Part shown: one piece after another, positions 5,909-53,208 of the stretch | How the letters are laid out: each line of letters opens with the position of its first letter | How positions within the stretch are numbered: position 1 is the first letter of the stretch | Origin: Xanthomonas sp. F10 | Lineage (GTDB): Bacteria > Pseudomonadota > Gammaproteobacteria > Xanthomonadales > Xanthomonadaceae | DNA length: 64,000 nucleotides | NCBI RefSeq assembly: GCF_014206815.1 | Contig: NZ_JACHNP010000004.1 | Coordinates: 62,001 to 126,000 of the forward strand | Reading direction: 5' to 3' | Program-made: the position numbers and the translations under genes | The notes under the pieces: model-generated | What the model was told of the DNA's origin: nothing | The model's input: only the letters and a program-made list of their open reading frames with translations | The model's database searches: none

Positions 5909-7339
<1,431 letters not shown>

Positions 7340-7349
7340 GAAGGGAGCC

Positions 7350-7374
7350 GGGACCCGGGACCCGGGCCCGGGAC
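7350..7374. repeat. GGGACCC-type repeats after ntrC
   Basis: About three overlapping copies of a 7-base GC unit (CCGGGAC), starting 10 bases after the ntrC stop. They are complementary to the array at 7519-7560, so a transcript could fold the two together around a roughly 145-base loop. Confidence 0.8.
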
Positions 7375-7518
7375 AGCGCGGACTCGGGAGCGGACAGATG
7401 TGCGACATGCGCTTGCTGGACTTGGGACGGCAATTTCCGGTTCGCGCTCGTTTACAGGCCAGGGAATTCGATCTGGCATTGCCTCATGCGCCGCTGCGCT
7501 GACGCGTCGCTACGCTTT

Positions 7519-7560
7519 CCGGGTCCCGGGTCCCGGGTCCCGGGTCCCGGGTCCCGGATC
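7519..7560. repeat. Tandem 7-base repeat CCGGGTC, five copies plus a variant
   Basis: Five perfect head-to-tail copies of CCGGGTC (7519-7553) and a sixth with one change (CCGGATC). Each unit overlaps the palindrome GGGACCC/GGGTCCC. Such short arrays expand and shrink by slippage; no coding role is seen. Confidence 0.9.
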
Positions 7561-7677
7561 CCGACCGCCACCGCACACCAAGCCCCGCCTCCGGCCAGCT
7601 AGACTGCGCGCCGTGCGCCTTCATGAGGTCTGCACGGCTGCCCCTCTAGTTTCGCCCTGCCACAGGAGTCGATGTCG

Positions 7678-8253
7678 ATGCGTTATGGATTGCCCCTCGC
7701 CGCGAGCGCCTTGTTGATGCTGGCCGCGTGCAGCAGCGCGCCGCCCAAGGCCCCGCCGCCGCCGCCCAAGGCCCCGCCGTTGCCGAGCGCCGGCACCGTG
7801 CAGCAGGCGCAGGCCGTATTGGCACCGGCCTCCGGCAGCCTGGTCAGCGGCAAGCTGTCGCTGGTCGCCGCGCCCGGCGGCGTGCGCATCACCGGCACGC
7901 TCGGCGGCCTGCAGCCCAACCGCAGCTTCGCCTTCCATGTACACGAGCGCGGCGACTGCAGCGCGGCCGACGCCAGCAGCGCCGGCGGCCACTTCAATCC
8001 ACTCGGCGCCCCGCACGGCCGCGCCGGCAACGGCCCGCACCACGCCGGCGACATGGACAACCTCAACGCCAACGCCGACGGCACCGCGCAGATCGACGTG
8101 CTGCTGCACGGCGTGGTGCTGGGCGGCGGCGCGGCCAACGATATCGTCGGCCGCGCGCTGGTGGCGCATGCCGACCCGGACGACTACCGCAGCCAACCGG
8201 CCGGCAATGCCGGCGCGCGCGTGGCCTGCGGCGTGATCCGCCCGCTGCGCTGA
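7678..8253 (+). CDS. sodC: Superoxide dismutase, Cu/Zn type, lipoprotein (copy 1)
   Basis: Periplasmic enzyme that converts superoxide to hydrogen peroxide and oxygen. 191 residues: a lipoprotein signal with lipobox LAAC at about residue 18, a Pro/Lys-rich linker (PPKAPPPPPKAPPLP), then the SodC fold. Copper and zinc ligands are visible in FHVHERGDCS, GGHFNP, the HG and HH histidines before AGDMDN, and VAHADPDDY, with the disulfide Cys near the end (ARVACGVI). I chose the ATG at 7678 because AGGAG (7664-7668) is then 9 bases away; an ATG at 7672 would be only 3 bases away. A paralogue follows after 78 bases. Confidence 0.92.
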   Translation: MRYGLPLAASALLMLAACSSAPPKAPPPPPKAPPLPSAGTVQQAQAVLAPASGSLVSGKLSLVAAPGGVRITGTLGGLQPNRSFAFHVHERGDCSAADASSAGGHFNPLGAPHGRAGNGPHHAGDMDNLNANADGTAQIDVLLHGVVLGGGAANDIVGRALVAHADPDDYRSQPAGNAGARVACGVIRPLR

Positions 8254-8331
8254 CCTCGCATCGCTACTTCCGCCCGGGTCCGCCTGGGAGGTCCGTCCGC
8301 ATTCCGCGGCTCTGCAACGAAGGAGAACCCC

Positions 8332-8970
8332 ATGCGTCGTACCCTTCCCAGTCTGCTGTTCCTGGCCACCACCCTGGCGCTGAGCGCCTGCAAGCGCGAG
8401 GAACCGGCGGCCACGCCGGCGCCGACCCCGGAACCTGCCGCCGCTCCCGCGGCCAGCGCGCCGCCGGCCGCCGCCAATGCCACCGGCAGCGCCAGCGCCT
8501 CGCTCAGCCCGACCCAGGGCAACGAAGTGGCCGGCGAGGTCAAGTTCACCACCGTCAACGGCGCCGTGCACGTCACCGGCACCATCACCGGGCTCAAGCC
8601 CAACAGCGAGCACGGCTTCCACATCCATGAGTTCGGCGACTGCAGCGCGCCCGACGGCAGCAGCGCCGGCGGCCACTTCAACCCGGCCAAGACCGAGCAC
8701 GGCCAGGTCGGCAGCGATCCGCACCACGGCGGCGACATGCCCAACCTCAAGGCCGATGCCGAGGGCAAGGCGACCATCGACGCGGCGGTGTCCAACAACG
8801 TCAACATCGGCAAGGGCGATGGCTTCGACATCCTCAACCACGCGGTGATCGTCCACGCCGACCCGGACGACTACAAGAGCCAGCCCACCGGCAACGCCGG
8901 CGGCCGCCTGGCCTGCGGCGTGATCAAGGGCGACGCGGCGGCCGCGCCGGCTGCGGCCGGTAGCCACTAA
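8332..8970 (+). CDS. sodC: Superoxide dismutase, Cu/Zn type, lipoprotein (copy 2)
   Basis: Second periplasmic Cu/Zn superoxide dismutase, 212 residues, with a lipobox LSAC near residue 18 and an Ala/Pro-rich linker to about residue 55. The catalytic segments FHIHEFGDCS, GGHFNPAKTEHG, HHGGDMPNL and IVHADPDDY are complete. Compared with copy 1 it keeps the whole active site but has a longer linker and a C-terminal Ala-rich tail. The ATG at 8332 is preceded by AAGGAG. Tandem placement suggests duplication, followed by divergence mainly outside the active site. Substrate differences cannot be read from the sequence. Confidence 0.93.
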   Translation: MRRTLPSLLFLATTLALSACKREEPAATPAPTPEPAAAPAASAPPAAANATGSASASLSPTQGNEVAGEVKFTTVNGAVHVTGTITGLKPNSEHGFHIHEFGDCSAPDGSSAGGHFNPAKTEHGQVGSDPHHGGDMPNLKADAEGKATIDAAVSNNVNIGKGDGFDILNHAVIVHADPDDYKSQPTGNAGGRLACGVIKGDAAAAPAAAGSH

Positions 8971-8984
8971 GCCAGCGCTCCCGG

Positions 8985-9016
8985 CACCGGCGGCGTCAGG
9001 CATACCGCCGCCGGTG
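8985..9016 (+). terminator. Hairpin after the sodC pair
   Basis: Stem CACCGGCGGCG with CGCCGCCGGTG around a loop of about 10 bases, 15 bases after the stop of copy 2 and in a convergent gap. There is no T tract, so it may be a processing or factor-dependent end. Confidence 0.4.
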
Positions 9017-9139
9017 TCGCGTCCTGTCGTGCTCAGGACGCAGCGGCACGCTGCCAATGCAGTTGTGTTCCCAGGATCGGGATTGTTCCTAGCGATGACG
9101 CACGGCGACTGTGCGCCGATGCGTCAGGCGCATTGCGGC

Positions 9140-10027
9140 TCAGGCCGCCAGCAACGCCTGCTTCGCGTCCTGCCCGCTCTCGCAATGCACGTACAGCACC
9201 GGCAGGCCGTGGGCCTCCAGCACCGCGGCCAGTTGCCGTTGCCGTGCCAGGTACTGCTCGTAGACCCGCTGCAGGCGCTCGCAGTCCTGGCGGTCGTAGG
9301 CGTAGTGCGCGCACCAGCTGGCCGGGTCGAACAGGGCCATGCGCACTTCGCCGCCGCGGTAGCGCAGCAACGGCTCCGGCGGGGCCTGCAGCCACTCTTC
9401 CTGGTCCGGTGCCAGCAGCGCGGTCTCGATCAGCGGCCACAGCGGCGCCAGGCCCTGGTTGTCGTACTGCATCGACATCATCGCCGCCAGGTCGTTGCCG
9501 GTCAGATAGCGGGCGTGCTCGATCTGCGCGCCGAAGCCCTGCTGCGCCAGCAACGCGGTATCGGCCTGGGCCATGCCCTGCGCCAGCAGCACCTCCTCCA
9601 GGGCCTCGGCCACCGCCTGCACTGTGTCGGCCGGGCCGCTGAGCAGGAACGGCACCACCCGCAACGCGCCGCCGCGCAGGCCGCTATCGGCCTGGAACGG
9701 CAGCGGCACGCTGCCGTCGGCATCGGTGCCGAAGGCCAGCAGCCGCGGGCCGTCATCGCGGCCGGGCGCGCGGGCCGCGAGTTCCTCCAGGCGCCGGTGC
9801 AGCGGCCAGCCCGGGCGCAGCGCTTCGGCCGGGTCGAAATGTGCGCCGGCCAGGCTCAGCTCCAGCTCGCGCACCGTCGGTACCAGCTGCGCCAGGTCGC
9901 GGCCGACCTTCTCGGCCAGCTCGGCGGCCTGCGTGTGCGGCAGCGCCGGATGCGTCGGTTCGCGCCCGGAGGACAGTTCCAGGGCGATCACCCCGCGGGC
10001 GTGGCTGTTGGCGAAGGCTTCGGTCAT
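9140..10027 (-). CDS. Conserved hypothetical protein, 295 aa
   Basis: Not recognised. The protein has 295 residues, is acidic, soluble and rich in Leu and Ala, with no signal peptide or membrane segment. It starts MTEAFANSHARGVIALEL. No catalytic motif stood out; the C-terminal third is rich in Tyr, Arg and Gln (YAYDRQDCERLQRVYEQYLARQ in part), which suggests a helical region. High-GC third positions in this frame support real coding. It is divergent from the thiolase gene, with 105 bases between the starts, and converges on the sodC pair. A lineage-specific protein of Xanthomonadaceae is likely. Confidence 0.75.
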   Translation of the reverse strand: MTEAFANSHARGVIALELSSGREPTHPALPHTQAAELAEKVGRDLAQLVPTVRELELSLAGAHFDPAEALRPGWPLHRRLEELAARAPGRDDGPRLLAFGTDADGSVPLPFQADSGLRGGALRVVPFLLSGPADTVQAVAEALEEVLLAQGMAQADTALLAQQGFGAQIEHARYLTGNDLAAMMSMQYDNQGLAPLWPLIETALLAPDQEEWLQAPPEPLLRYRGGEVRMALFDPASWCAHYAYDRQDCERLQRVYEQYLARQRQLAAVLEAHGLPVLYVHCESGQDAKQALLAA

Positions 10028-10132
10028 GGGATTGGCGGTTGGCCCGTCGCGGGCGCATAGCTACACTCGCTTCATTATGCCTGCGCTAACGTGCAGGCCA
10101 TGTCCCCGACTCCCCTCGCGCGAGGTAATCCC

Positions 10133-11413
10133 ATGCCAGCAGCCCGTCCCGTCGCCATTCTCGGCGGCGTCCGCATTCCGTTTTGCCGGCAGAACACGGC
10201 GTACGCGGATGTCGGGAACCTCGGCATGTCGGTGCGCACGCTGGGCGCGCTGGTCGAGCGCTACGGACTGCACGGGCAGCAGCTGGGCGAAGTGGCGATG
10301 GGCGCGGTGATCAAGCATTCCAGCGACTGGAACCTGGGTCGCGAGGCGGCGCTGTCCTCCGGGCTGTCGCCGTTGACCCCGGGCATCACCCTGCAGCGCG
10401 CCTGCGGCACCAGCCTGGACAGCATCATCACCGTGGCCAACAAGATCGCGCTGGGGCAGATCGAGTCCGGCATCGGCGGCGGCTCGGACACCACCTCCGA
10501 GGTGCCGATCGTCTACGGCAAGAAGCTGCGCGCGCGGCTGCTGGCGGCCAACCGCGCCAAGAGCGCCGGCGACAAGCTGCGCGCGCTGACCCGCGGCTTC
10601 AAGTTCGCCGAGCTCAAGCCCGAGTTCCCCGGCGTGGCCGAGCCGCGCACCGGCAAGAGCATGGGCGATCACTGCGAGGACATGGCCAAGCAGTGGAACA
10701 TCTCGCGCGATTCGCAGGACGCCTGGGCGGTGTCCTCGCACAAGAAGCTGGCCGCCGCCTACGAGCGCGGCTTCTTCGCCGACCTGATCGCGCCGTTCCG
10801 CGGCGTGGAGCGCGACAACATCCTGCGCGCGGACACCTCGCTGGAGAAACTGGCCACGCTGAAGCCGGCGTTCGACAAGGTCAGCGGCCGCGGCACCCTG
10901 ACCGCGGCCAACTCGACCCCGCTGACCGATGGCGCCGCCGCGGTGCTGCTGGCCTCGGAAGACTGGGCGCAGGCGCACGGCCACGTGCCGATGGCCTATC
11001 TGCGCGATGCGCAGGTGTCGGCGGTGGATTTCGTGCACGGCGAAGGCCTGCTGATGGCGCCGACCATCGCGGTGCCGGAGATGCTCAAGCGTCACGGCCT
11101 GCGCCTGCAGGACTTCGACATCTACGAAATCCACGAGGCTTTCGCCGCGCAGGTGCTGTGCACCCTGCGGGCCTGGGAGAGCGAGGACTACTGCCGCACC
11201 CGGCTGGGCCTGGACGCGCCGCTGGGGCAGATCGACCCGGCCAAGATCAACCCGCTGGGCTCGTCGCTGGCCACCGGCCACCCGTTCGCCGCGACCGGCG
11301 CGCGCATCGTCGCCACCGTCGCCAAGCAACTGGTCGAACGCGGCGGTGGCCGCGCGCTGATCTCGATCTGCACCGCCGGCGGCATGGGCGTGGTGGCGAT
11401 CGTCGAACGCTAA
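10133..11413 (+). CDS. fadI: Acetyl-CoA C-acyltransferase (thiolase, FadI-like)
   Basis: Thiolase that cleaves 3-ketoacyl-CoA with CoA (beta-oxidation) or condenses acetyl-CoA. 426 residues. The nucleophile Cys lies in QRACGTS, the second catalytic set in YEIHEAFAAQ, GHPFAATGARI and the final Cys in ISICTAGGMG. Similarity runs along the FadI subgroup (MGDHCEDMAKQW, TAANSTPLTDGAAA). I chose the ATG at 10133 because GAGGT sits 6-7 bases upstream; the frame is open back to a GTG at 10091. No fadJ partner is adjacent, so the physiological pathway is uncertain: fatty-acid degradation or acetoacetyl-CoA supply. Confidence 0.88.
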   Translation: MPAARPVAILGGVRIPFCRQNTAYADVGNLGMSVRTLGALVERYGLHGQQLGEVAMGAVIKHSSDWNLGREAALSSGLSPLTPGITLQRACGTSLDSIITVANKIALGQIESGIGGGSDTTSEVPIVYGKKLRARLLAANRAKSAGDKLRALTRGFKFAELKPEFPGVAEPRTGKSMGDHCEDMAKQWNISRDSQDAWAVSSHKKLAAAYERGFFADLIAPFRGVERDNILRADTSLEKLATLKPAFDKVSGRGTLTAANSTPLTDGAAAVLLASEDWAQAHGHVPMAYLRDAQVSAVDFVHGEGLLMAPTIAVPEMLKRHGLRLQDFDIYEIHEAFAAQVLCTLRAWESEDYCRTRLGLDAPLGQIDPAKINPLGSSLATGHPFAATGARIVATVAKQLVERGGGRALISICTAGGMGVVAIVER

Positions 11414-40993: not shown

Positions 40994-41596
40994 TTGACCG
41001 AACGCGATTACCGCCTGCCCGCAGCGCCGCCGAACATGCCGATGGTCAAGCCCAGCCGCTTCATGCGCTGGCTCGGCCGCACCGCCCTGCGGGTGACCGG
41101 TTGGCGGGTCGTGGGCGAGTTCCCCAACGTGCCGAAGCTGGTGATGATCGTGGCGCCGCATTCGTCCAACTGGGACGGGTTCCTGGGCTTCGCGGTCAAG
41201 TTCGCGGTCGGCTTCGAGGTGCGCGTGCTGGGCAAGACCCAGCTGTTCTGGTGGCCGCTGGGGCCGCTGCTGCGCAAGCTCGGCGGCATTCCGCTGGACC
41301 GCACCTCGCCGCGCGGGGTGGTGGAACAGGCGGTGGCGTTGATCCGCGGCGCCGAGCGCATGTGGTACGTGATCACCCCCGAGGGCACGCGCAAGCGCGT
41401 GGAGAAGTGGAAGACCGGCTTCTGGAAGATCGCCCACGGCGCGCAGGTCCCGATTTTTCCGGTGTACTTCGACTATCCCAGCCGTACCGTCGGCCTCGGC
41501 GAGCCGGTGTACACCAGCGAGGACATGCAGGCCGACATCGCCGCAATCCGCACCTGGTACCGGCCATGGCGCGGCAAGCATCGCGACACGTTGTGA
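40994..41596 (+). CDS. PlsC-like 1-acylglycerol-3-phosphate acyltransferase
   Basis: 200 residues. Acyltransferase motifs: HSSNWD (the H-x4-D pair), LGGIPLDRTS, TPEGTRKRVEKWKTGF and FPVYFDYP. The start is a TTG at 40994, chosen because GGGAG is 6-7 bases upstream and overlaps the end of arfB; the first ATG (MPMVKPSRFM) lies 14 codons in. An outlying PlsC family member; it probably acts on lipid at the membrane. Substrate not certain. Confidence 0.85.
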   Translation: MTERDYRLPAAPPNMPMVKPSRFMRWLGRTALRVTGWRVVGEFPNVPKLVMIVAPHSSNWDGFLGFAVKFAVGFEVRVLGKTQLFWWPLGPLLRKLGGIPLDRTSPRGVVEQAVALIRGAERMWYVITPEGTRKRVEKWKTGFWKIAHGAQVPIFPVYFDYPSRTVGLGEPVYTSEDMQADIAAIRTWYRPWRGKHRDTL

Positions 41597-42256: not shown

Positions 42257-45200
42257 CTACAACGCGCTGCCGCCGAACTTCTGCGTGTACTGCAGGTACA
42301 CGCTGCGGCCCACGGTGTCGAACCAGGACACGTCGTAGTACGGATACGCCGTGTAGGTGCGGTCGTGCGGCGGCATCGTGTCGAACAGGTTGGTCACCGT
42401 CAGCGACAGCTGCGCGTGGTCGGTGAAGCGGTACTGCAGCGAGGCGTTGTAGCGGTAGGTGGCACCGATCCACGGACTGTCGCCGCTCTCCGGGTCGTAG
42501 ACCTGATCGTAGGAATCGGAACTCGGCAGCCGGCCCAGGCGTTCGCCGTGCAGCGTCGCGGTCCAGGCGTTGCGCTCCCACGACACGCTGGCGCTGGCCT
42601 TGGTGCGCGGGATGTCGTAGCCGCTGTTGACCGCGAACTCGTCCACCATCGCTTCGCCGGCATACACCTGGATGTCGTGGCGGCGCACCCAGGTGTAGTT
42701 GCCGCTCAGGCGGAAGGTGCCGATGCCGGTGTCGAGACGGTACTGCGCGCTCAGGTCGACGCCGTTGGTGCGTTCGCGGGCGATGTTGATCGGGTTGACG
42801 TAGACCCCGTACAGGCGGCCGTCGGCGCTGCGGGTCACCCGCGCCAGCGCCTGCTGGCAGGTGGTGGAGGCCGCCTGCAGCACGCCAAGGCGGCAATCGG
42901 CCTCGTCGCGCAGCACCTGGTCCACGCGCAGGTCCTGCACCTGGTCGCGCATGTCGATGTCGAAGTAGTCCAGCGACAGGTCCAGGTCGGCCATCGGCGA
43001 CCACACCAGGCCGGCGGTCCACGAGGTGCTGTTCTCCGGGTCCAGCGCGCGGTTGCCGCTGCGGCCGCGGATCACCGCTTCCTCGTTGTAGCTGCAGTCC
43101 TGGATCGCCACGCCCGGCTCCTCGCTGGCGCAGCGGTAGTAGTCCACGCCGGTGGTCTCGTCGTTGCCGGGGCCGGCGTACACGTAGTGCAGGTCGGGCG
43201 CGCGGAACGCGGTGCCATAGGAGCCGCGCACCAGCAGCGACTGCACCGGCCGCCACTCCAGCCCGCCGCTGTAGGTGAACTTGCCTAGCGAGCGCCCGGC
43301 GAAGCGGTACTGGTCGTAGCGCCCGGCCAGGCTCAGCGACACCGTCGACAGCACCGGCAGGCGCAGCTCGCTGGCCAGTGCCCAGCGGTTGCGGCTGCCG
43401 TGGCCGTCGGAGTCCTTCCAACTGTAGTAGTAGTACTGCGTGGCCAGCGGATCCGGGCGCAGGGTGTAGGCCTGGTTGCCGAATTCGGCGGTCGCGGCCA
43501 TGCCGGCATCGCCGCCGGGCAGCGAGAACAGCGCGGTGTTGGTGGCGGTGAAGGCGAGGGTGTCGGTGCGCGAGCGCGGCTGGTACACCGTGCGCCGGGC
43601 GATGCTGTCGTACTCGGCACGGCTCAGCGGCGTGTACAGGCGCTGCGGGTCGGCGTCGAAGATCGGCAGCCCCGAATCCTCGTCCACGCCCAGTTGCGGG
43701 CCGAGGAACAGCGCGTTGGCGCGCGCGGCGACGATCTGCGGCCAGCTGATCGTGGCCTGGTACTGCGAGTGGCTGAGGCTGGCTTCGTAGTCCCAGTCCG
43801 CGCCCAGGCGGCCCTTGAACCCGGTGGTGACGCTGAAGGTCTTTTGCCGTGTGCGGATGGTGCCGGCATCGAGGCCGCCCATTTCCTCCGGGCTGAACTG
43901 GCGGCCCCAGGCTTCCACCTGGCCGGTGGCCTGGTTGTAGAAATAGCCCTGCTCGTTGCCGTCCGGGGCCATGTAGCCCCACTGGGTCACGTCGCGGAAC
44001 AGCGACAGCTCGTGGTAGCCCACCTGCACGTCGGCGAACCACTCGCTGCCGTTGTCGAAGGCGTAGCGCAGCGAGGCGTAGCCGTTGAGGCCGCGGCGCT
44101 TGTTGGTGATGGTGCCGTACCCGATCGAGGCGCTGCTGCCGCAGAACGCGCCATAGCCCGGGCGGGTGGCGTAGCCGGTGCTGCCGCCGTTGAGCGCGGA
44201 CACCGCCGCGCAGGTGTCCGCGCCCGGATCGAGATAGTTGTCGTCGTAATCGGTGCGCAGGAAGGTGCGCCGCGGCACCTGCGCGCGTGCGGTGGGGCCG
44301 TCCAGGGTGCTGTCCTGGCGGCCGCGCTGATAGGCCCACAGCGGCGTCTGCGACACCAGTTCGGCGCCGAACACCGCGTCGAAGTTGCCGCGCGACCAGC
44401 CGCTGCTGAGGCTGAGGTTGAAGCTCTCGCCGCCGCCGCGGGTGGTGTCGCCGAAACGGTAGTCCAGCGTGGTGCCGTCGGCGTGCTTCTTGAGGATGAA
44501 GTTGACCACGCCGGAGATCGCGTCCGAGCCGTAGATCGCCGAGGCGCTGCCGGTCAGGATCTCGATGCGGTCGATCATGCCCAGCGGGATGTTGGAGATG
44601 TCGGTGAAGTTGCTGCGGCCCTTGAACGGCATCGGGAAGTCGGCGATGCGGCGGCCGTTGACCAGCACCAGCGTGTGGTTGGGGCCGAGTCCGCGCAGGT
44701 CCACCTGCTGCGCGCCGGGTGAGAAGTCGGCGCCGCTGGCCGACTGCGGGCTCTGCGTTTCGCCGCCGTTCTGGGTCATCGCGCGCAGCACGTCCGGCAC
44801 CGAGGTGAAGCCGTTGGCCTTGATCTGCTCGGCGCTGATCACGCTGATCGGCGCCGGGCCTTCCACCTGCGTGCGCGGAATGCGCGAGCCGGTGACGCGC
44901 AGGGTGTCCAGTTGCGCCACCGGGGCGTCAGGTACAGCTGCAGGCGTCGGCGTGGCGACACGGGCCGCTGGCGTGCGCGCCGGAGCCGGCGCCTGACGCC
45001 GCACCAGCCACGCGCCGGAGGCGTCGCGCTCGGCGACGAAACCGCTGCCGCGCAGTACCTGCTGCAGCGCCTGCGCGGTATCCAGGCGGCCGTGCGCACC
45101 GCCACTGCGTGCTTCGCCCAGTTGGTCGGCCCGATAGAGCAATTGCACGCCGGATTGCCGCGCCAAGGCGTCCAGCGCCGCACGCAGCGGGCCGGCGGGG

Positions 45201-45304
45201 ACGTCCACCGTGCCGGTGGCGGCCACGGCAGCGGGTTGCGCCTGCGCCGCGCAGGCGCTCGCACAGGCCATGCTCAGCAGCAGGGCACGCATCGGATACC
45301 GCAT
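42257..45304 (-). CDS. TonB-dependent receptor with STN signalling domain
   Basis: 1015 residues: signal peptide (MRYPMRALLLSMACASACAA), STN domain (about 28-100), linker, plug from about residue 135 (LDTLRVTGSRIPRTQVEGPA, then PISVISAEQIKANGFTSVPD), and a 22-strand barrel ending in YLQYTQKF. The STN domain signals to an anti-sigma factor, and a FecR and sigma factor follow in the same operon. The receptor shows a Ser/Gly-rich plug typical of the large Xanthomonas receptors. Ligand unknown. The start at 45304 follows a GGGGGAG ribosome site. Confidence 0.94.
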   Translation of the reverse strand: MRYPMRALLLSMACASACAAQAQPAAVAATGTVDVPAGPLRAALDALARQSGVQLLYRADQLGEARSGGAHGRLDTAQALQQVLRGSGFVAERDASGAWLVRRQAPAPARTPAARVATPTPAAVPDAPVAQLDTLRVTGSRIPRTQVEGPAPISVISAEQIKANGFTSVPDVLRAMTQNGGETQSPQSASGADFSPGAQQVDLRGLGPNHTLVLVNGRRIADFPMPFKGRSNFTDISNIPLGMIDRIEILTGSASAIYGSDAISGVVNFILKKHADGTTLDYRFGDTTRGGGESFNLSLSSGWSRGNFDAVFGAELVSQTPLWAYQRGRQDSTLDGPTARAQVPRRTFLRTDYDDNYLDPGADTCAAVSALNGGSTGYATRPGYGAFCGSSASIGYGTITNKRRGLNGYASLRYAFDNGSEWFADVQVGYHELSLFRDVTQWGYMAPDGNEQGYFYNQATGQVEAWGRQFSPEEMGGLDAGTIRTRQKTFSVTTGFKGRLGADWDYEASLSHSQYQATISWPQIVAARANALFLGPQLGVDEDSGLPIFDADPQRLYTPLSRAEYDSIARRTVYQPRSRTDTLAFTATNTALFSLPGGDAGMAATAEFGNQAYTLRPDPLATQYYYYSWKDSDGHGSRNRWALASELRLPVLSTVSLSLAGRYDQYRFAGRSLGKFTYSGGLEWRPVQSLLVRGSYGTAFRAPDLHYVYAGPGNDETTGVDYYRCASEEPGVAIQDCSYNEEAVIRGRSGNRALDPENSTSWTAGLVWSPMADLDLSLDYFDIDMRDQVQDLRVDQVLRDEADCRLGVLQAASTTCQQALARVTRSADGRLYGVYVNPINIARERTNGVDLSAQYRLDTGIGTFRLSGNYTWVRRHDIQVYAGEAMVDEFAVNSGYDIPRTKASASVSWERNAWTATLHGERLGRLPSSDSYDQVYDPESGDSPWIGATYRYNASLQYRFTDHAQLSLTVTNLFDTMPPHDRTYTAYPYYDVSWFDTVGRSVYLQYTQKFGGSAL

Positions 45305-45405
45305 CGAGTTTTCTCCCCCAAACGGGCGCGGAGCGCGCCTTCGTAGCTCCAGGACGAACGAGACCGGCAAATCCCCCCGCCATCGCGCACGCCGGCGCGG
45401 GCGGC

Positions 45406-46461
45406 TTACCGGCTGTGCAACAGCACCGTGTCGCCGCGGCGCTCGGCGCGGATCGGGAAGCCCTGTTCGAGCAGGCGCACGAAGGCGTCGACGTTGGACC
45501 AGCGCACGTTGCCGCCGACCCGCAGCGCCGCGGCGCCGGCATCGGCGACCTGCAGCTTGATCGTGTTGTAGCGGTTGAACTCGGCCACCGCCGCCTGTAG
45601 CGGGGTGTCGTCGAAACTCAGGTAGCCGCTGCGCCAGTCCAGCGCGCGCTCGGCCTCGGCCAGCGCCACCCGGCGCACCAGCACCCCGTGCGGGCCGGCC
45701 TGGGCGATGCTGCCGGCAGGCAGCAGCAACGGTGGCGCGTGCGGTGCATCGGCCGACTCCAGCCGCACCGTGCCTTCGGTCACCACCACGCGCAGCGCGT
45801 CGGCGTCGCGGCGCACCGCGAAGCGCGTGCCCACCGCCACCACCTGGCGCGCGCCGCTGGCGACCACGAACGGCCGGCCCGGGTCCTTGCTCACCGCGAA
45901 GAACGCTTCGCCGCGCTGCAGGTCGATATGCCGCTGCGCGCGCGACAGCGCCACGGCGATGCGGCTGTCGCTGCTCAGCGTGGCCTGCGAGCCGTCGGCC
46001 AGGGCCACCGGCCGCAACTGCCCGGTGACGCTGGCGTAGGCGGTCGGCACCGGTTCGACGGCATGGCGCCAGACCAGGGACAACACCGCGGCACCGAGCA
46101 GCGTCGCCGCCAGCGCGGCCGGCCAGCGCCGTCGCGGGCGCGCGGGCGAACGCGGGGCGAAGCGCAGGTCGCGCAGATCCGGTGCGGCCGCCGCCGCGGC
46201 GGGCGGCGCCGCCGCGCTACGGCCGCCCAGGCCCTGCCAGCGGCCGCGTTCGGGCACCTGCCCGTCGCGTTGGCCTGCGCCCAGCGCCTGCAGGCGCCCG
46301 CTTTCCTGCCAGGCCGCCTGCAGGCGCAGGAACGCCACCCGGTGCGCGGTGGCCGCGGCCAGCCACGCGTCCAGGCGCGCCTGCCGTGCGTCGGTCCAGT
46401 CGCCGCGGTCGCGCCGCGCCAGCCAGGCCGCCGCACGCGCCTCAATCCACTTGCTGTCCAT
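45406..46461 (-). CDS. FecR-family anti-sigma/signal transducer
   Basis: 351 residues. DUF4880 N-terminal region (about 1-60: EARAAAWLARRDRGDWTDARQARLDAWLAAATAHRVAF in part), an Ala-rich linker, one membrane helix (about 112-130) and the FecR domain (ASVTGQLRPVALADGSQATLSSDS, FVVASGARQVVAVGTRFAVRR). The C-terminal part contacts the receptor STN domain. It overlaps the sigma factor by 20 bases and precedes the receptor gene by 101 bases: a complete cell-surface signalling set. Confidence 0.93.
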   Translation of the reverse strand: MDSKWIEARAAAWLARRDRGDWTDARQARLDAWLAAATAHRVAFLRLQAAWQESGRLQALGAGQRDGQVPERGRWQGLGGRSAAAPPAAAAAAPDLRDLRFAPRSPARPRRRWPAALAATLLGAAVLSLVWRHAVEPVPTAYASVTGQLRPVALADGSQATLSSDSRIAVALSRAQRHIDLQRGEAFFAVSKDPGRPFVVASGARQVVAVGTRFAVRRDADALRVVVTEGTVRLESADAPHAPPLLLPAGSIAQAGPHGVLVRRVALAEAERALDWRSGYLSFDDTPLQAAVAEFNRYNTIKLQVADAGAAALRVGGNVRWSNVDAFVRLLEQGFPIRAERRGDTVLLHSR

Positions 46462-47014
46462 CGCGTGCGCGCGCCTGCAACGGCGCCGCCGGCGCCGTCG
46501 CGCCCTCGTCGCCATGGAAATGATCGGCCAGCAAGCGCATGCCCCGGGCCACCTGCTTCTCCACGCTCTTCTCGCTGATCCCCAGGCGCACGGCCACCTC
46601 CTTCTGTGGCAGTTCCTCGACCCGCCGCAACCAGACCACGCTGCGACAGCGGTCCGGCAAGCGGTCGAAGGCCGCGGCCAGCCGGCCCAGCACCTGGCGT
46701 CCGCCGCACCAGCGTTCCGGCGACAGCTCATCTACCAGGACGTGCATCGACTCCAGATCCCCCACCGCCTCGATCGACACCACCCGATTGCGGCGCAGGC
46801 GGTCGGTCATCAGGTGCCGCGCGGTGGCGAACAGGAACGACTTGGGCAGGCTCGGCCGGGACTTGCCCGCAGCCTCGTAGACGCGCACATAGATCTCCTG
46901 GCGCAGGTCGTGCCATTCCTCGCGATGCGGCCAGCAGCGCCGCAGGTAGCCGCTGAGCGCCTGCTCGTGGACCAGGATTTCTTGGACGAACCAATCGTCG
47001 AGGGAAGCGGACAT
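46442..47014 (-). CDS. ECF sigma factor, FecI-like
   Basis: 190 residues with sigma region 2 (EWHDLRQEIYVRVYEAA, SFLFATARHLMTDRLRR) and region 4 (LPDRCRSVVWLRRVEELPQKEVAVRLGIS, partly quoted). The C-terminal tail is Ala-rich. Start ATG at 47014 (MSASLDDWFV). It probably drives the receptor operon and perhaps the divergent cyanophycinase fusion gene, whose start is 157 bases away. It is the first gene of the sigma-FecR-receptor unit. Confidence 0.92.
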   Translation of the reverse strand: MSASLDDWFVQEILVHEQALSGYLRRCWPHREEWHDLRQEIYVRVYEAAGKSRPSLPKSFLFATARHLMTDRLRRNRVVSIEAVGDLESMHVLVDELSPERWCGGRQVLGRLAAAFDRLPDRCRSVVWLRRVEELPQKEVAVRLGISEKSVEKQVARGMRLLADHFHGDEGATAPAAPLQARARDGQQVD

Positions 47015-47171
47015 GGATCCCACATTAGCCGATCGCCGGCAGCTGCGGGCAAGTGCCGCGCAGGCGAACGTGGGAGGGTGGCGGTGGCGGGGGGAAACCG
47101 TGCCGCCGTTCGTCCCCTCTCAGCAGCGAGCCGCACGCTCGCCTGCCCGTCCCGTTCCCGAGGAGATCCGC

Positions 47172-49118
47172 ATGACCCGTTCCGTCGGCCTGTTCCGGCC
47201 CTGGCTCTCCCTGCTGCTGGGCCTGTGTCTGGCCACGCCCGCCGTCGCGCGCGAGTACCGCCAGTACCTGGTCGGCGACCCGGCCGCGCCCACGCCCGGT
47301 CCGGTGTCGCCCGGCCTGCTGCTGATGGGCGGCGGCGACCGCAACTATGACGCGCTGCGCTGGTTCCTGGCCAAGGCCGGGCACGGCCACGTGGTGGTGC
47401 TGCGCGCCTCGCAGGCGGGCGAGGTAGGCGAGGAGTTCTACCGCAAGGTCGGCGGCGTGGCTTCGGTGGAGACCTTCGTGTTCAGCGGCCGCGGCGCCTC
47501 CAGCGATCCGGCGCTGCTGCGCGCGCTGGCGCGCGCCGATGGCATCTTCATCGCCGGCGGCGACCAGTCGCGCTACGTGCGTTACTGGAAGAACACCCCG
47601 GTGGCCGATGCGCTGGACGCGCACGTGCGCGCCGGCAAGCCTCTGGGCGGCACCAGCGCCGGCCTGGCGATGCTCGGCGAGTACCTGTACGGCGCGATGG
47701 ACGGCGGCAGCCTCACCAGCCCGGCGGCATTGGCCGATCCGCTGGGGCCGGCGGTCACCCTCGAGACCGACTTCCTGCACCTGGACCTGCTCAAGCGGGT
47801 CATCACCGACACCCACTTCCGCGAGCGCGACCGCCTCGGCCGCCTGTTCGCGTTCCGCGCCAAGGCCGCCACATTGGCGCCGAAGGGGGAGCCGCTGATC
47901 GGTCTCGGCGTGGACGAGAGCGCCGCAGTGGCGGTGGAGGGCGACGGCACCGCGCGCGTCTATGCCACCGATCCGCAGGCCGTGGCCACCGTGGTCGCCG
48001 GGCCGCTGACGCCGCCGACCCCGGCCGGGCAGCCGCTGCAGGCCGCGCGCATCGAGACGGTTGGCGTCGGCCCCGGCTCCACCCTGCACCTGCCCGACGG
48101 CCGCGTCGAGGCGCCAGTGTTCCACCGCTACTACGCGGTGCAGGACGGGCGCATGCGCGAGATTCCCGCCACCACGCTGGTGATCCATGGCGGTGCCGGC
48201 GTCGAGCGCGCCAGCAGCAGCGCCGCCGACCTGGCCGAGGCGCGTGCGGCGATGGAGCAGGCGTTGCGCACCGGGCAGGCGCTGCTGGCGCAGGGCAAGC
48301 CGGCCGTGGATGCGGTGGCCGCGGCGATCGCCGAGCTGGAGGACTCGCCGCAGTTCAACGCGGGCAAGGGCGCGGTGTTCACCCACGACGGCCGCAACGA
48401 ACTGGACGCGGCGATCATGGACGGCCGCACCGGCAAGGCCGGCGCGGTGGCCGGCGTGCACCGGGTCAGGAACCCGATCGCACTGGCGCGCGCGGTGATG
48501 GAGCAGTCCGACCACGTGATGCTGGTCGGCGATGGCGCCGAGGTCTTCGCAAAGCAGCACGGCATCGCCCTGGTCGACCCGTCCTACTTCCGCACCGAGA
48601 AGCGCTGGCAGCAACTGCAGCAGGCGCTGAAGGAAGAGGCCAACAAGCAGGCGCACGCCGATCTGGAAACCGCCAAGCACTTCGGCACGGTCGGCGCGCT
48701 GGCGCTGGACCTGCAGGGCAACCTGGCCGCCGGCACCTCCACCGGCGGCATGACCAACAAGCGCTACGGCCGCGTCGGCGACTCGCCGATCATCGGCGCC
48801 GGCACCTTCGCCGACAGCCGCTGCGCGGTGTCCGGCACCGGCTGGGGCGAGTTCTACATCCGCGCGGTGGCCGCCTACGACATCTGTGCGCGGGTGAAGT
48901 ACGCCGGGCAGAGCCTGGCCGAGGCCGCCGATGCGGTGATCGACCAGCAGATCCCCAAGGCCGGCGGCGACGGCGGCGCCATCGCGCTGGGCGCCGACGG
49001 CAGCGTGGCCTTCCCGTTCAACACCGAGGGCATGTACCGCGGCTGGATCGGCGCCGACGGCGTGCCGCACGTGGCCATCTTCAAGGACGAGGCGCTGCCG
49101 CTGCCCGGCGGGCAGTAA
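47172..49118 (+). CDS. Exported cyanophycinase-isoaspartyl peptidase fusion
   Basis: 648 residues with a signal peptide (cleavage after ATPAVA). Residues about 30-330 form a peptidase S51 cyanophycinase: FIAGGDQSRYVRYW, nucleophile Ser162 in GGTSAGLAM, then DTHFRERDRLGRL and GLGVDESAA. Residues about 334-648 are an Ntn-hydrolase of the isoaspartyl peptidase/asparaginase type: LVIHGGAG, nucleophile Thr506 in HFGTVGALALD, TSTGGMTNKRYGRVGDSP, PFNTEGMYRGW. Together the halves could cut cyanophycin to beta-Asp-Arg and then to Asp and Arg in the periplasm. Both active sites look complete. Start ATG at 47172 after GAGGAGATC. It is divergent from a sigma/receptor operon. Confidence 0.9.
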   Translation: MTRSVGLFRPWLSLLLGLCLATPAVAREYRQYLVGDPAAPTPGPVSPGLLLMGGGDRNYDALRWFLAKAGHGHVVVLRASQAGEVGEEFYRKVGGVASVETFVFSGRGASSDPALLRALARADGIFIAGGDQSRYVRYWKNTPVADALDAHVRAGKPLGGTSAGLAMLGEYLYGAMDGGSLTSPAALADPLGPAVTLETDFLHLDLLKRVITDTHFRERDRLGRLFAFRAKAATLAPKGEPLIGLGVDESAAVAVEGDGTARVYATDPQAVATVVAGPLTPPTPAGQPLQAARIETVGVGPGSTLHLPDGRVEAPVFHRYYAVQDGRMREIPATTLVIHGGAGVERASSSAADLAEARAAMEQALRTGQALLAQGKPAVDAVAAAIAELEDSPQFNAGKGAVFTHDGRNELDAAIMDGRTGKAGAVAGVHRVRNPIALARAVMEQSDHVMLVGDGAEVFAKQHGIALVDPSYFRTEKRWQQLQQALKEEANKQAHADLETAKHFGTVGALALDLQGNLAAGTSTGGMTNKRYGRVGDSPIIGAGTFADSRCAVSGTGWGEFYIRAVAAYDICARVKYAGQSLAEAADAVIDQQIPKAGGDGGAIALGADGSVAFPFNTEGMYRGWIGADGVPHVAIFKDEALPLPGGQ

Positions 49119-49129
49119 GGAGTGCTCAC

Positions 49130-49151
49130 GGGCCGGCGGTGCCGCCGGCCC
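49130..49151 (+). terminator. GC hairpin after the fusion gene
   Basis: GGGCCGGCGG/CCGCCGGCCC stem with a TG centre, 12 bases after the stop. No T tract; an uncertain terminator. Confidence 0.4.
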
Positions 49152-49354
49152 GGGCGCGTGCGTGATCCATCCGGCCCGGTGCGTCCCACCGCGGCCAGCC
49201 CGCCGATGCAGCGGCGCGCGCGTGCCCGCGCCCGGCGATCTGTACGCCGGCTGGCTGCCGCGCCGGGCCGAGCCAATGGCACATGCCGCTGCCATCCAAA
49301 CCCGGTAACGTGCACGGCTGTCTTGGCCCCAGGTCCTCCCAGGAGTTCCACCTC

Positions 49355-51514
49355 ATGTCGCGTAACGTCGTTCTGGCCGCTGCCATCAGCTTGGCGCTGG
49401 CCGCCTGTTCCGGTAAGGAGTCCACCCCCGTGCCCGCCGCCCCCGCTGCTCCGGCCGCCGCGCAGCCCGCCGCCGCCGCCAACCCGCTGCTGACCCCCAG
49501 CACGCTGCCGTTCCAGGCGCCGCCGTTCGACAAGATCAAGGACAGCGACTACCTGCCGGCGTTCGAAGAAGGCATGAAGCAGCACCTGGCCGAGATCCGC
49601 AAGATCGCCGACAACCCGGAACCGGCCACCTTCGCCAACACCCTCGAAGCGATGGAGCGCAGCGGCGAGACCCTGACCCGCGTGTCGCGCATCTTCTTCG
49701 GCCTGGTGCAGGCCGACACCAACGATGCCCGCCAGAAGATCCAGGAAGAGATCGCGCCCAAGCTGGCCGCGCACCAGGACGAGATCAGCCTGGATCCCAA
49801 GCTGTTCGCGCGCATCAAGAGCCTGTACGACCAGCGCGACACGCTGAACCTGGACCCGGAGCAGAAGCGCCTGGTCGAGTACGAATACCAGGAGTTCGTG
49901 CGCGCCGGCGCGCAGCTGTCCGATGCCGACAAGGCCACCCTGCGCAAGCTCAACGTCGAAGAGACCACCCTGGCCACGCAGTTCCACACCAAGCTGGTCG
50001 CGGCCACCGCCGCCGGCGCGGTGGTGGTGGACGACAAGGCCAAGCTCGACGGCCTGTCCGACGGCGACATCGCCTCGGCCGCGCAGGACGCCACCGCGCG
50101 CAAGCTCGACGGCAAGTACCTGCTGGCCCTGCAGAACACCACCCAGCAGCCGGTGCTGGCCTCGCTGAAGGACCGCGACCTGCGCCAGCAGGTGATGGCC
50201 GCCTCGCAGTCGCGCGCCGAGAAGGGCGATGCCAACGACACCCGCCAGACCGTGCAGCGCCTGGCGCAGCTGCGCGCGCAGAAGGCCAAGCTGCTCGGCT
50301 TCGACAGCTACGCCGCCTACAGCCTCAGCGACCAGATGGCCAAGACCCCGGCCGCGGCGCTGAAGCTGCTCACCGACACCGTGCCCGCCGCCACCGCCAA
50401 GGCGCGCAGCGAAGCCGCGGAGATGCAGAAGGTGATCGACGCGCAGAAGGGCGGTTTCAAGCTCACCGCCGCCGACTGGGACTTCTACGCCGAGCAGGTG
50501 CGCAAGGCCAAGTACGACCTCGACGAAGCGCAGATCAAGCCGTACTTCGAACTGGACAACGTGCTGCAGAACGGCGTCTTCTACGCCGCCAACCAGCTGT
50601 ACGGCCTCACCTTCAAGGAACGCGCCGACATCCCCACCTACCACGACGGGATGAAGGTCTATGAAGTGTTCGACAAGGACGGCAAGTCGCTGGCGCTGTT
50701 CTACACCGACTACTTCAAGCGCGACAGCAAGTCCGGCGGCGCCTGGATGGACGAGTTCGTCGGCCAGAACGGCCTGACCGGCACCAAGCCGGTGGTCTAC
50801 AACGTCTGCAACTTCACCAAGCCCGCCCCGGGCCAGCCGGCGCTGCTGAGCTTCGACGACGTCACCACCATGTTCCACGAGTTCGGCCATGCGCTGCACG
50901 GCATGTTCTCCAACGTGAAGTACCCGACCCTGGCCGGCACCGCCACCTCGCGCGACTTCGTCGAGTTCCCCTCGCAGTTCAACGAGCACTGGGCGTCGGA
51001 TCCGAAGGTGTTCGCGCACTACGCCAAGCACTACCAGACCGGCGAGGCGATGCCGGCCGACCTGGTGGAGAAGATCAAGAAGTCGCGCACCTTCAACCAG
51101 GGCTACGCCACCACCGAATACCTGTCGGCGGCGCTGCTCGACCTGTCCTGGCACACCCTGCCGGCCGACGCGCCGCTGCAGGACGTGGACAAGTACGAGG
51201 CCGACTCGCTGAAGAAGTACAAGGTGGACCTGGCGGAAGTGCCGCCGCGCTACCGCACCACCTATTTCGACCACATCTGGGGCGGCGGCTACTCGTCCGG
51301 CTACTACGCCTACTTCTGGTCGGAAGTGCTCGACGACGACGCGTTCCAGTGGTTCAAGGAGCACGGCGGCCTGACCCGCGCCAACGGCGACATCTTCCGC
51401 GACAAGATCCTCTCGCGCGGCAACACCGTCGACCTGGCCACGCTGTACCGCGACTTCCGCGGCAAGGATCCCAGCGTCGAGCCGCTGCTGGAAAACCGCG
51501 GTTTGAAGAACTGA
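49355..51514 (+). CDS. dcp: M3 family peptidase (Dcp-like), lipoprotein
   Basis: 719 residues. Lipoprotein signal with lipobox LAAC at about residue 17, an Ala/Pro linker, then the thimet oligopeptidase/Dcp fold. Zinc motif HEFGH (His508, Glu509, His512) within TMFHEFGHALHGMFS, and a downstream Glu in SRDFVEFPSQFNEHW. The Tyr-rich GGGYSSGYYAYFWSEVLDDDAF is a conserved C-terminal feature. It releases C-terminal dipeptides or cuts short peptides in the periplasm. AGGAG precedes the ATG at 49355 by 9 bases. It follows the cyanophycinase fusion and ends in a strong terminator. Confidence 0.92.
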   Translation: MSRNVVLAAAISLALAACSGKESTPVPAAPAAPAAAQPAAAANPLLTPSTLPFQAPPFDKIKDSDYLPAFEEGMKQHLAEIRKIADNPEPATFANTLEAMERSGETLTRVSRIFFGLVQADTNDARQKIQEEIAPKLAAHQDEISLDPKLFARIKSLYDQRDTLNLDPEQKRLVEYEYQEFVRAGAQLSDADKATLRKLNVEETTLATQFHTKLVAATAAGAVVVDDKAKLDGLSDGDIASAAQDATARKLDGKYLLALQNTTQQPVLASLKDRDLRQQVMAASQSRAEKGDANDTRQTVQRLAQLRAQKAKLLGFDSYAAYSLSDQMAKTPAAALKLLTDTVPAATAKARSEAAEMQKVIDAQKGGFKLTAADWDFYAEQVRKAKYDLDEAQIKPYFELDNVLQNGVFYAANQLYGLTFKERADIPTYHDGMKVYEVFDKDGKSLALFYTDYFKRDSKSGGAWMDEFVGQNGLTGTKPVVYNVCNFTKPAPGQPALLSFDDVTTMFHEFGHALHGMFSNVKYPTLAGTATSRDFVEFPSQFNEHWASDPKVFAHYAKHYQTGEAMPADLVEKIKKSRTFNQGYATTEYLSAALLDLSWHTLPADAPLQDVDKYEADSLKKYKVDLAEVPPRYRTTYFDHIWGGGYSSGYYAYFWSEVLDDDAFQWFKEHGGLTRANGDIFRDKILSRGNTVDLATLYRDFRGKDPSVEPLLENRGLKN

Positions 51515-51575: not shown

Positions 51576-52020
51576 GTTGGGGGTTGATTTGGACATGCCT
51601 TGCGTCGCTGGTACGACTCACTTCAAGGTAGCAAGGGATGCGGATGCCATCGCCATGGCGGTGCGCTGGCTAGCCGAAACTCGACAATCCATTCGGCTGA
51701 GGGGGCAGTAGCGGATATACGTCGTCCTCTTTCCGTACATGTCCGCGTCCCACCGTGGAGGGCGCGATCCTCAATGCAGGCGGACCGCTCAGCCGTGCCA
51801 CTAGAGACGACGGAAATGTTTGTCTACGAGCATGGACGGTTCGAAATGAATTTTTATCGATCCAAACTCCGTCAGATCCTAGGCGTCAAATCTCTCATGG
51901 TGCAGCAGGATCCGCATTGATGGGTTCAAAGGCCTGCGTAAGAGTTGCAGCGACGGATCGCCTATGTACCATCAGGGCGTGGTTCGAAGATTCAACCAAA
52001 TCCACCACGAGGAGAGGACG
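51576..52020. other. Lower-GC spacer before the M35-like protease
   Basis: About 445 bases with visibly lower GC (25 of 60 bases at 51841-51900, against 40 of 60 at 50941-51000). Short open frames are present but none shows a ribosome site, signal or family motif. It marks the left edge of a probable acquired segment. Confidence 0.5.
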
Positions 52021-53208
52021 ATGAAAGGAAACTGGATTGTGGGCATCGCGATGCTGTGCGCTTGCTTTGCGGCGTCTGCCGCAGGACAGCTAGACATTCG
52101 ACTGGAGCATGCGCAGGTTGCCAGAGCCAGCTCTGGCGGAGCGGTCATTACGATGACTTTGACTAATGCGGGGAATCAGCCTATCGCGGTGCCTGATGCT
52201 TATGTTCCCGCGGTGAGCCGCGATGGAGTAATGCAAGCGAATCTGTTCCGGGTGTTGCAGGAAGACGGAAGCCCGGTGGACTACCGCGGCATTTACGTAA
52301 GCAAACTGCCGGGTTCGACGCCTGACGTCATCCTGCGCCCGGGTGAGTCGAGATCCGCGACGGTGGATCTGTCCCTGAGCTACCAGATCATGCCTGGCCG
52401 CCACTACTCTGTGACCGTGCAGCCTCTTCTGCGGTACCGCGAACTTCCGACGGCCGCCGCCGCGAACGCTTCCGATCACCCGAACCAACTCAAGGCCGCC
52501 ACATCCAACCGTATTGAGATCACACCGCAGGCATCGGCCGAGCCTCAATCCGATGCTCGAAGCACTGAGGCCGCAGAGGCTGTTGCCTGTAGCGCCGAAC
52601 AGCAAAGCGCGATTCAGGAGGCGGTGCTCAACGCCGGCGACCTCGCCCTCGCAACCTCGAAGTACACACAGTCGCTCCTTCAATCCGACGGAAACGGAAA
52701 CCTTACGTTCAACCAGACTCCGCGTTACACGAAGTGGTACGGCCAGTACGGCGACCCGAACGACATGTCCAGCCCGAATGGCACGGTCAACGGAAAGATC
52801 GCGTGGAGGATCCACGTCAATGCAATCCGCCTCGGGAAGGAAGAGAATCAATTGCCTAACCCACCCACATTGTCCACGCAATGCAATTGCGAAAAGCAGG
52901 GAAAGGTTGATCCGGCGAATACGGTCGCGTGGGTGAACCCGTCCGAGCCCTACGCCATCAATATCTGTCCGCTGTTTTTCTCCCTTCCAGCCATCGGTAA
53001 CGCGCAGAACACATACTCCAAGGCGGGGACGATCCTGCACGAGATCTCGCACTTCAACGATGGGTACACGAAAGGTACGGACGATCTGGGTAACCCCAAC
53101 CAGCCGGTAGAAGACGCAAAGCTCTTAGCCCAATCTGCAAGAGATTTGGCGGCCGACGCTGCGAACAATATTGAGTTCTACAGCGTCAACCTGGAAGGTG
53201 ATCAGTAG
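52021..53208 (+). CDS. M35-like (deuterolysin-type) secreted metalloprotease
   Basis: 395 residues with a signal peptide (cleavage after SAAG), an N-terminal immunoglobulin-like prodomain (about 25-150, LTNAGNQPIAVPD, VILRPGESRSATVDLSLSY) and a C-terminal zinc domain. The zinc motif is HEISH (His340-His344), followed by FNDGYTKGTDD, where an Asp is the expected third ligand (aspzincin); the usual YG after it is missing. Similar enzymes in Aeromonas and others cut at Lys. GAGGAGAGG precedes the ATG at 52021. GC is lower than in the neighbours, so it is probably acquired. Confidence 0.82.
   Translation: MKGNWIVGIAMLCACFAASAAGQLDIRLEHAQVARASSGGAVITMTLTNAGNQPIAVPDAYVPAVSRDGVMQANLFRVLQEDGSPVDYRGIYVSKLPGSTPDVILRPGESRSATVDLSLSYQIMPGRHYSVTVQPLLRYRELPTAAAANASDHPNQLKAATSNRIEITPQASAEPQSDARSTEAAEAVACSAEQQSAIQEAVLNAGDLALATSKYTQSLLQSDGNGNLTFNQTPRYTKWYGQYGDPNDMSSPNGTVNGKIAWRIHVNAIRLGKEENQLPNPPTLSTQCNCEKQGKVDPANTVAWVNPSEPYAINICPLFFSLPAIGNAQNTYSKAGTILHEISHFNDGYTKGTDDLGNPNQPVEDAKLLAQSARDLAADAANNIEFYSVNLEGDQ

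Follow-up and report, generated by a model that had tools for sequence, protein, structure and literature searches.

Why would a bacterium export a single protein that appears to join two steps of cyanophycin degradation, and why should its gene face a cell-surface signalling unit? The question is raised by a stretch of 64,000 nucleotides (the window) from Xanthomonas sp. F10, contig NZ_JACHNP010000004.1, positions 62,001 to 126,000, in a 4.78 Mb genome of six contigs whose single S51 match is this protein. We favour, with a probability of roughly 0.7, a locus for scavenging cyanophycin (multi-arginyl-poly-aspartate) under FecIRA-type cell-surface signalling. The original prediction had placed both enzymes in one gene at 47172-49118, opposite a sigma-FecR-TonB receptor unit; the coordinates hold, Pfam finds both domains, and the sigma factor start at 47014 on the minus strand gives the 157-base gap named there. 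The features are as follows.

47172..49118, plus strand: exported fusion of an S51 cyanophycinase domain and an IaaA isoaspartyl peptidase domain, 648 residues (Pfam, NCBIfam, alignments, residue conservation)
47172..47249, plus strand: Sec-type signal peptide, residues 1-26, ending AVA/RE (by eye)
47307..47966, plus strand: S51 domain, residues ~46-265, with key residues Gln132, Ser162, Asp213, Thr214, His215, Arg219, Arg221, Arg224 and Glu249 (alignment to 3en0 and 7uqw, conservation, fold)
48174..49091, plus strand: IaaA domain, residues 335-640 (Foldseek against E. coli EcAIII, phmmer)
48687-48689, plus strand: codon of Thr506, the nucleophile of the IaaA domain
42257..45304, minus strand (start 45304): TonB-dependent receptor with an N-terminal STN signalling domain (Pfam STN, plug and barrel)
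45406..46461, minus strand (start 46461): FecR-type anti-sigma factor or signal transducer, 351 residues (Pfam FecR, 66.4 bits)
46442..47014, minus strand (start 47014): FecI-like extracytoplasmic function (ECF) sigma factor (Pfam Sigma70_r2 and r4; NCBIfam sigma70-ECF above cut-off)

The FecIRA gene set is complete, with the ECF sigma factor, the FecR domain and the STN-bearing receptor encoded together, and the start of the FecR gene overlaps the end of the sigma gene.

Linkage of the fusion to a receptor subfamily

The relatives set, the best 80 of 574 confirmed loci picked by similarity to the fusion, comprises 47 fused loci, eight with S51 and IaaA genes as neighbours and 25 with IaaA and no S51. 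Organism names assign the loci to Xanthomonadales, Sphingomonadales, Caulobacterales and, in an altered form, Bacteroidota, and this recurrence argues that the arrangement is not due to chance. The nearest named loci belong to Xanthomonas species, with up to 96% identity among the matches listed. An opposite-strand receptor of the same subfamily lies in the gene block of 42 of the 55 S51-bearing loci (that of L036 is cut at a contig end). The other 13 consist of L032 with a remnant only, three loci that run into contig ends (L047, L069 and L105), which have no testable receptor and stand outside the counts, L052, L054 and L073 with none, and six Bacteroidota loci without a match to this receptor, which have another receptor type or were left unchecked, L097 alone having been examined by Pfam for its receptor. 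L036, L047 and L105, whose receptor genes are truncated or lie beyond the contig, are not part of the receptor alignment.

As the 80 loci had been chosen by similarity to the fusion, a second test, independent of them, used 398 evenly drawn Pseudomonadota genomes, with thresholds of E <=1e-30 for the S51 subfamily and E <=1e-190 for the receptor subfamily. Each subfamily occurs in 10 of the 398 genomes, and the ten genomes are identical, giving a naive hypergeometric probability of 4e-20 for the overlap, although these are not ten independent events since they fall into seven genera. The genes form one block in all ten (G033 was read across a contig break, where FecR ends one contig and the sigma factor starts the other), with IaaA fused in three and next door in seven. 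Two distant S51 genes (G033:C4 and G044:C31, 35-39% identity), with no subfamily receptor in their regions, were left out of the subfamily. Among 60 relatives, the receptor (called at >780 bits and at least 46% identity, the next best elsewhere reaching <540 bits) is present in 19 of the 20 genomes with this S51 (at least 49% identity), G008 being the exception, versus none of the 40 others. Searching for the fusion across genomes thus bore out the proposed linkage, which is conserved far beyond chance and involves STN-type receptors in the Xanthomonadales. Altogether, the relatives speak for a functional unit.

Two other explanations bear on this linkage. An iron-type FecIRA unit might merely lie beside an unrelated enzyme, as Xanthomonas genomes are rich in TonB receptors, with 72 predicted in X. 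campestris (PMC1790865) and 57 first-look candidates in the source genome; the identical ten genomes in seven genera, together with a promoter element shared by the two genes (below), make such chance proximity hardly credible. The second is a recovery system for a lasso-peptide-like isopeptide natural product. The enzyme here combines S51 with an N-terminal nucleophile (Ntn) hydrolase, which by general knowledge is unrelated to lasso isopeptidases, and the distribution of the receptor subfamily follows that of S51. Judged by enzyme type and receptor distribution, with no search aimed at lasso precursor or maturation genes, this explanation is very improbable, even though in published isopeptidase clusters the isopeptide-cleaving enzyme likewise has a TonB receptor and a sigma/anti-sigma pair as neighbours (PMC9266682, in excerpt).

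An adjacent receptor of the subfamily is found in none of the 25 IaaA-only loci, which are not independent evidence because a single joint loss of receptor, FecR, sigma factor and S51 would fit them. The acyltransferase gene at 40994-41596 of the window also lies within ~800 bases upstream of IaaA in 22 of these 25 loci; the chromosomal site is therefore the same, and the four genes are missing from it together. In the IaaA tree, 22 IaaA-only genes (21 of them in the acyltransferase set) are sister to four fused Xanthomonas genes with a support of 0.996, and this grouping is nested in a larger clade with other fusions (support 0.982).

Probable FecIR signalling and a shared promoter element

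An ECF-type element, GGGGAW-N10-CGTTCGTC, lies upstream of both the receptor and the fusion gene:

45353..45376, minus strand: GGGGATTTGCCGGTCTCGTTCGTC, 48 bases before the receptor ATG (pattern match)
47091..47114, plus strand: GGGGAAACCGTGCCGCCGTTCGTC, 57 bases before the fusion ATG (pattern match)

The whole genome holds three exact copies, two at the locus and a third antisense inside a predicted open reading frame. Allowing two mismatches adds no match in the window to the two exact copies; as shuffles average 1.18 matches at that tolerance, it is their exactness and position that deserve attention, not their number. The element was spotted by eye on the fusion side, by comparing divergent intergenic regions, and counted afterwards with a relaxed pattern. 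It precedes the fusion gene in 21 of the 27 sigma-bearing loci (L047 included, although its FecR lies off the contig), a count that is not independent of the discovery. The receptor side played no part in this discovery; there the element precedes the gene in 21 of the 25 testable loci, with both places occupied in 19 of 25. No match to the relaxed pattern faces the sigma gene in any of the 27 loci, and the background elsewhere in these loci is ~0.005 matches per 200 bases. Among the loci without sigma factor and FecR, three of 22 have a match near the fusion, clear in L032, where the receptor unit has been lost, and weak in L044 and L054. A further FecIR-bearing genome, G033, has the element only before the receptor. 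This distribution suggests that the element may be used by the sigma factor of the locus.

The arrangement resembles E. coli fec, in which transcription of fecA depends on FecI and that of fecIR on sigma70 (PMC9249621, in excerpt). Sigma factor, FecR and STN receptor follow in the same order, and the element stands before the receptor and not before the sigma-fecR pair, a likeness of placement. Unlike in fec, a peptidase gene appears as a second target, and no iron gene is seen here. The STN domain co-varies with the regulators, being present in all 25 receptors with FecIR versus none of the 17 without an adjacent sigma factor or FecR, including that of the Xanthomonadales locus L044. An Lrp/AsnC-type gene lies near 18 of the 19 alphaproteobacteria-type loci scanned, namely 17 loci of the relatives set (one of which is the query's own locus), L142, which has it, and L143, which does not. 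In the Bacteroidota locus L097 a single strand carries, in this order, the sigma factor, FecR, a SusC-type receptor with STN, SusD and the fusion.

The source genome has another sigma-FecR-receptor unit at L131 (G000:C1:1566000-1585000), whose receptor belongs to this subfamily too. The sigma factor lies at 6464-7036, FecR at 7017-8078 and the 58% identical receptor at 8185-11193, and no S51 gene belongs to the unit. A divergent, exported-looking protein of 150 residues that has no Pfam match is preceded there by a promoter-like element with two mismatches.

The enzymes and their probable substrate

Peptidase_S51 scores 40.0 bits in the fusion (Pfam cut-off 23.9). As IaaA matches dominated the Foldseek search of the full-length model, the S51 half was modelled by itself for the fold comparison. 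Ser162 sits in a GTSAG motif, and alignment to 3en0 and 7uqw shows the Ser-His-Glu catalytic set in the S51 fold. The CphB pocket residues Gln101, Asp172, Arg178, Arg180 and Arg183 are matched by Gln132, Asp213, Arg219, Arg221 and Arg224, and CphB position 173 (Gln or Thr) corresponds to Thr214; eight catalytic and binding residues are the same in all 56 S51 domains. Compared by the residues listed in PMC3235067, the exported fusion shares with Pseudomonas CphE, likewise an exported S51 enzyme, the catalytic Ser/His/Glu, the Gln/Asp/Thr/Arg/Arg/Arg set and the Asp-to-Arg spacing. CphE itself is a single S51 enzyme; the S51 domain here is joined to IaaA and associated with a receptor and sigma unit.

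The other half matches Asparaginase_2 at 374.9 bits (Pfam cut-off 27) and is 50% identical by Foldseek to E. coli EcAIII, a plant-type asparaginase (phmmer E 3.5e-90), with a score of 331.6 bits against the PRK10226 equivalog of NCBIfam, whose cut-off is 567. Alignment to EcAIII identifies Thr506, preceded by Gly505, as the Ntn nucleophile at the start of the beta chain, and Thr506, Thr524, Gly526, Thr556 and Gly557 do not vary in 56 of 56 domains. The Thr nucleophile and its cleavage context are thus those of EcAIII, whereas export and an S51 domain ahead of the alpha chain are peculiar to the fusion. Ser162 and Thr506, which had been proposed as the active sites, both align with their respective families.

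The polymer would probably come from outside. The original prediction had noted the absence of cyanophycin synthetase (CphA) from the window, and no CphA above the cut-off was found anywhere in the source genome, so that other microbes are the probable origin of the substrate. Among the 60 relatives, CphA occurs in one of the 19 genomes with this S51 fused to or beside IaaA (G030; the source genome is included) and in 18 of the other 41 (Fisher p 0.003, uncorrected for kinship). Low-identity S51 genes often lie beside CphA, as in G032, G036, G047 and G030 itself, and the exported fusion is therefore a different gene.

Several observations count against cyanophycin as the substrate or against the locus as a fixed unit. 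The S51 half reaches 91.0 bits against the TIGR02069 cyanophycinase equivalog, below its cut-off of 126.6, and position 214 varies among the 56 domains (Thr 43, Ser 7, Gln 4, Met 2). The same pocket residues are kept by the solved 'pseudo-CphB' 7uqv, so that residues alone are no proof of cyanophycinase activity; the study of that protein reportedly saw none. G037 has this S51 and the receptor with no adjacent IaaA, yet CphA is present. Cyanophycin is also poorly soluble, and its uptake would therefore need smaller pieces. At the level of the locus, in Xanthomonas sp. AmX2 (L032) the fusion is intact and the receptor reduced to a remnant, the S51-bearing loci L052, L054 and L073 have no nearby receptor, L034, L039 and L053 have no promoter element at either place, and neither does a further FecIR-bearing genome, G046 (L135). 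In L032 (7694-10196) the sigma factor and FecR are gone as well, and the fusion gene is followed by a short additional stretch that matches the C-terminus of IaaA.

The shortfall in the NCBIfam score and the example of pseudo-CphB would also agree with the same machinery serving another substrate, namely beta-aspartyl (isoaspartyl) peptides from damaged proteins or an isopeptide polymer, with an S51 domain that has drifted; IaaA enzymes are promiscuous even within cyanophycin clusters (PMC10206079, in excerpt). We consider this unlikely, as Arg219, Arg221, Arg224, Asp213 and Gln132, which align with residues reported to be critical in CphB, are constant in all 56 domains, the most divergent of them at 31% identity, and the matched stretch of the PepE-type chains listed stops before the Asp-His-Arg region. 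Judged from its sequence, the exported fusion carries a CphE-type S51 cyanophycinase domain that would hydrolyse cyanophycin.

Proposed working and history of the locus

In the scavenging model, cyanophycin or a fragment of it would bind the receptor, and the STN domain would signal through FecR to the ECF sigma factor, as the FecA paradigm and the co-variation of STN with FecIR suggest. RNA polymerase directed by this sigma factor would start at the elements before the receptor and the fusion, and not before sigma-fecR. Pieces of the polymer would be imported by the receptor, the S51 half, whose domain and residues are observed, would cut the Asp backbone, and the self-cleaving IaaA half would free Asp and Arg from the beta-Asp-Arg dipeptides. 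Ordinary transporters would then take up the freed amino acids. A gene of the SDF-type symporter family, which includes aspartate carriers, lies close by in L059, L067, L070 and L107 of 40 loci scanned, in a scan that took its query from L107 and left most Xanthomonadales loci outside. In L107, a Pedobacter locus, a second, separate S51 gene (9980-10822) follows IaaA and precedes the symporter gene.

A rather doubtful variant, overlapping with this model and differing in the import and hydrolysis steps alone, places the enzyme outside the cell or at its surface, like CphE, with a receptor that only senses or imports the dipeptide and does not import the polymer. Characterised CphE enzymes are extracellular (PMC3235067), and the separate S51 of L107 has a lipoprotein-like N-terminus beside a separate, exported-looking IaaA (both by eye). 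However, linkage to the receptor subfamily persists in 17 loci whose receptor has no STN sensing domain, so that the conserved role of the subfamily seems to be transport and not sensing, and by general knowledge free Asp and Arg need no TonB receptor. A bolder form of the scavenging model, which we hold to be evenly balanced between true and false, regards the receptor as a dedicated TonB importer and surface sensor for cyanophycin pieces. The locus would then be a proteobacterial counterpart of a polysaccharide utilization locus for a polypeptide polymer, with digestion in one exported protein of two active sites and a control module that has changed from lineage to lineage by exchange. Xanthomonadales pair FecIR with an STN receptor and Bacteroidota pair it with SusC/SusD; in Sphingomonadales and Caulobacterales the receptor lacks STN, and an Lrp-type gene is usually close to it.

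Fused and separate states are intermingled on both domain trees (single FastTree runs). In the Xanthomonadales fusions, the IaaA halves group with other Xanthomonadales IaaA and not with fused alphaproteobacterial ones, whereas the S51 halves, except that of L053, group with alphaproteobacterial fusions. The differing groupings suggest that the domains were joined more than once or that halves were swapped between lineages.

Downstream of the fusion lies a neighbour that is no conserved part of the system:

49355..51514, plus strand: M3 peptidyl-dipeptidase Dcp, probable lipoprotein (NCBIfam, by eye)

The protein meets the NCBIfam Dcp equivalog at 989 bits (cut-off 944). A periplasmic M3 peptidase had been predicted here as a partner of the system. 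The gene is indeed present at 49355; from the lipobox LAAC seen by eye at the N-terminus, its product is probably a lipoprotein and not a soluble protein of the periplasm. The partnership did not hold, since among the 25 IaaA-only loci 20 have an M3 gene after IaaA (L101 is cut by a contig end), versus five of the 55 S51-bearing ones; it belongs to the older IaaA neighbourhood and not to the receptor system. The M3 gene occurs in two or three copies in the Xanthomonas loci L082, L087 and L092, and a predicted M35-type (deuterolysin/aspzincin) metallopeptidase lies beyond it in the window (51964-53205, plus strand).

Clustering of these enzymes has precedents. According to the excerpted text of PMC10206079, cyanophycinase and IaaA are clustered in 30 of 32 genomes that have both and lack CphA, and a 'cyanophycin utilization locus' is credited to Ben Hania et al. 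2017. As cited there, that locus also combines a cyanophycinase, an isoaspartyl dipeptidase and a transporter for scavenging, a likeness known here from gene content; it was described with iadA, whereas in the proteobacterial form seen here the cyanophycinase is joined to IaaA, and a TonB receptor subfamily of its own and FecIR control are added. The text of PMC10206079 contains none of the terms 'fused', 'bifunctional' and 'single polypeptide', and among literature titles on cyanophycinase, in a coverage with few subscription papers, none concerns a natural fusion or FecIR control. A TonB receptor beside a cyanophycinase was reported in 2012 in Citromicrobium sp. JLT1363 (PMC3400609, in excerpt), a locus that is presumably a member of the alphaproteobacterial form; the excerpt deals with a single locus and reports no fusion, co-occurrence or regulation.

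Taken at the level of the system, it is likely from sequence comparison that the locus would sense, import and hydrolyse cyanophycin. Cyanophycin is a nitrogen store of many bacteria, and its use by others has been described mostly in terms of a secreted cyanophycinase and an isoaspartyl dipeptidase. With a conserved receptor, a two-step fused enzyme and a defined promoter element, direct tests of cyanophycin uptake and sensing become possible. A single protein turning cyanophycin into free Arg and Asp would have practical use, and, if the proposed reading is true, a polypeptide polymer would join the ligands of FecIRA-type signalling.

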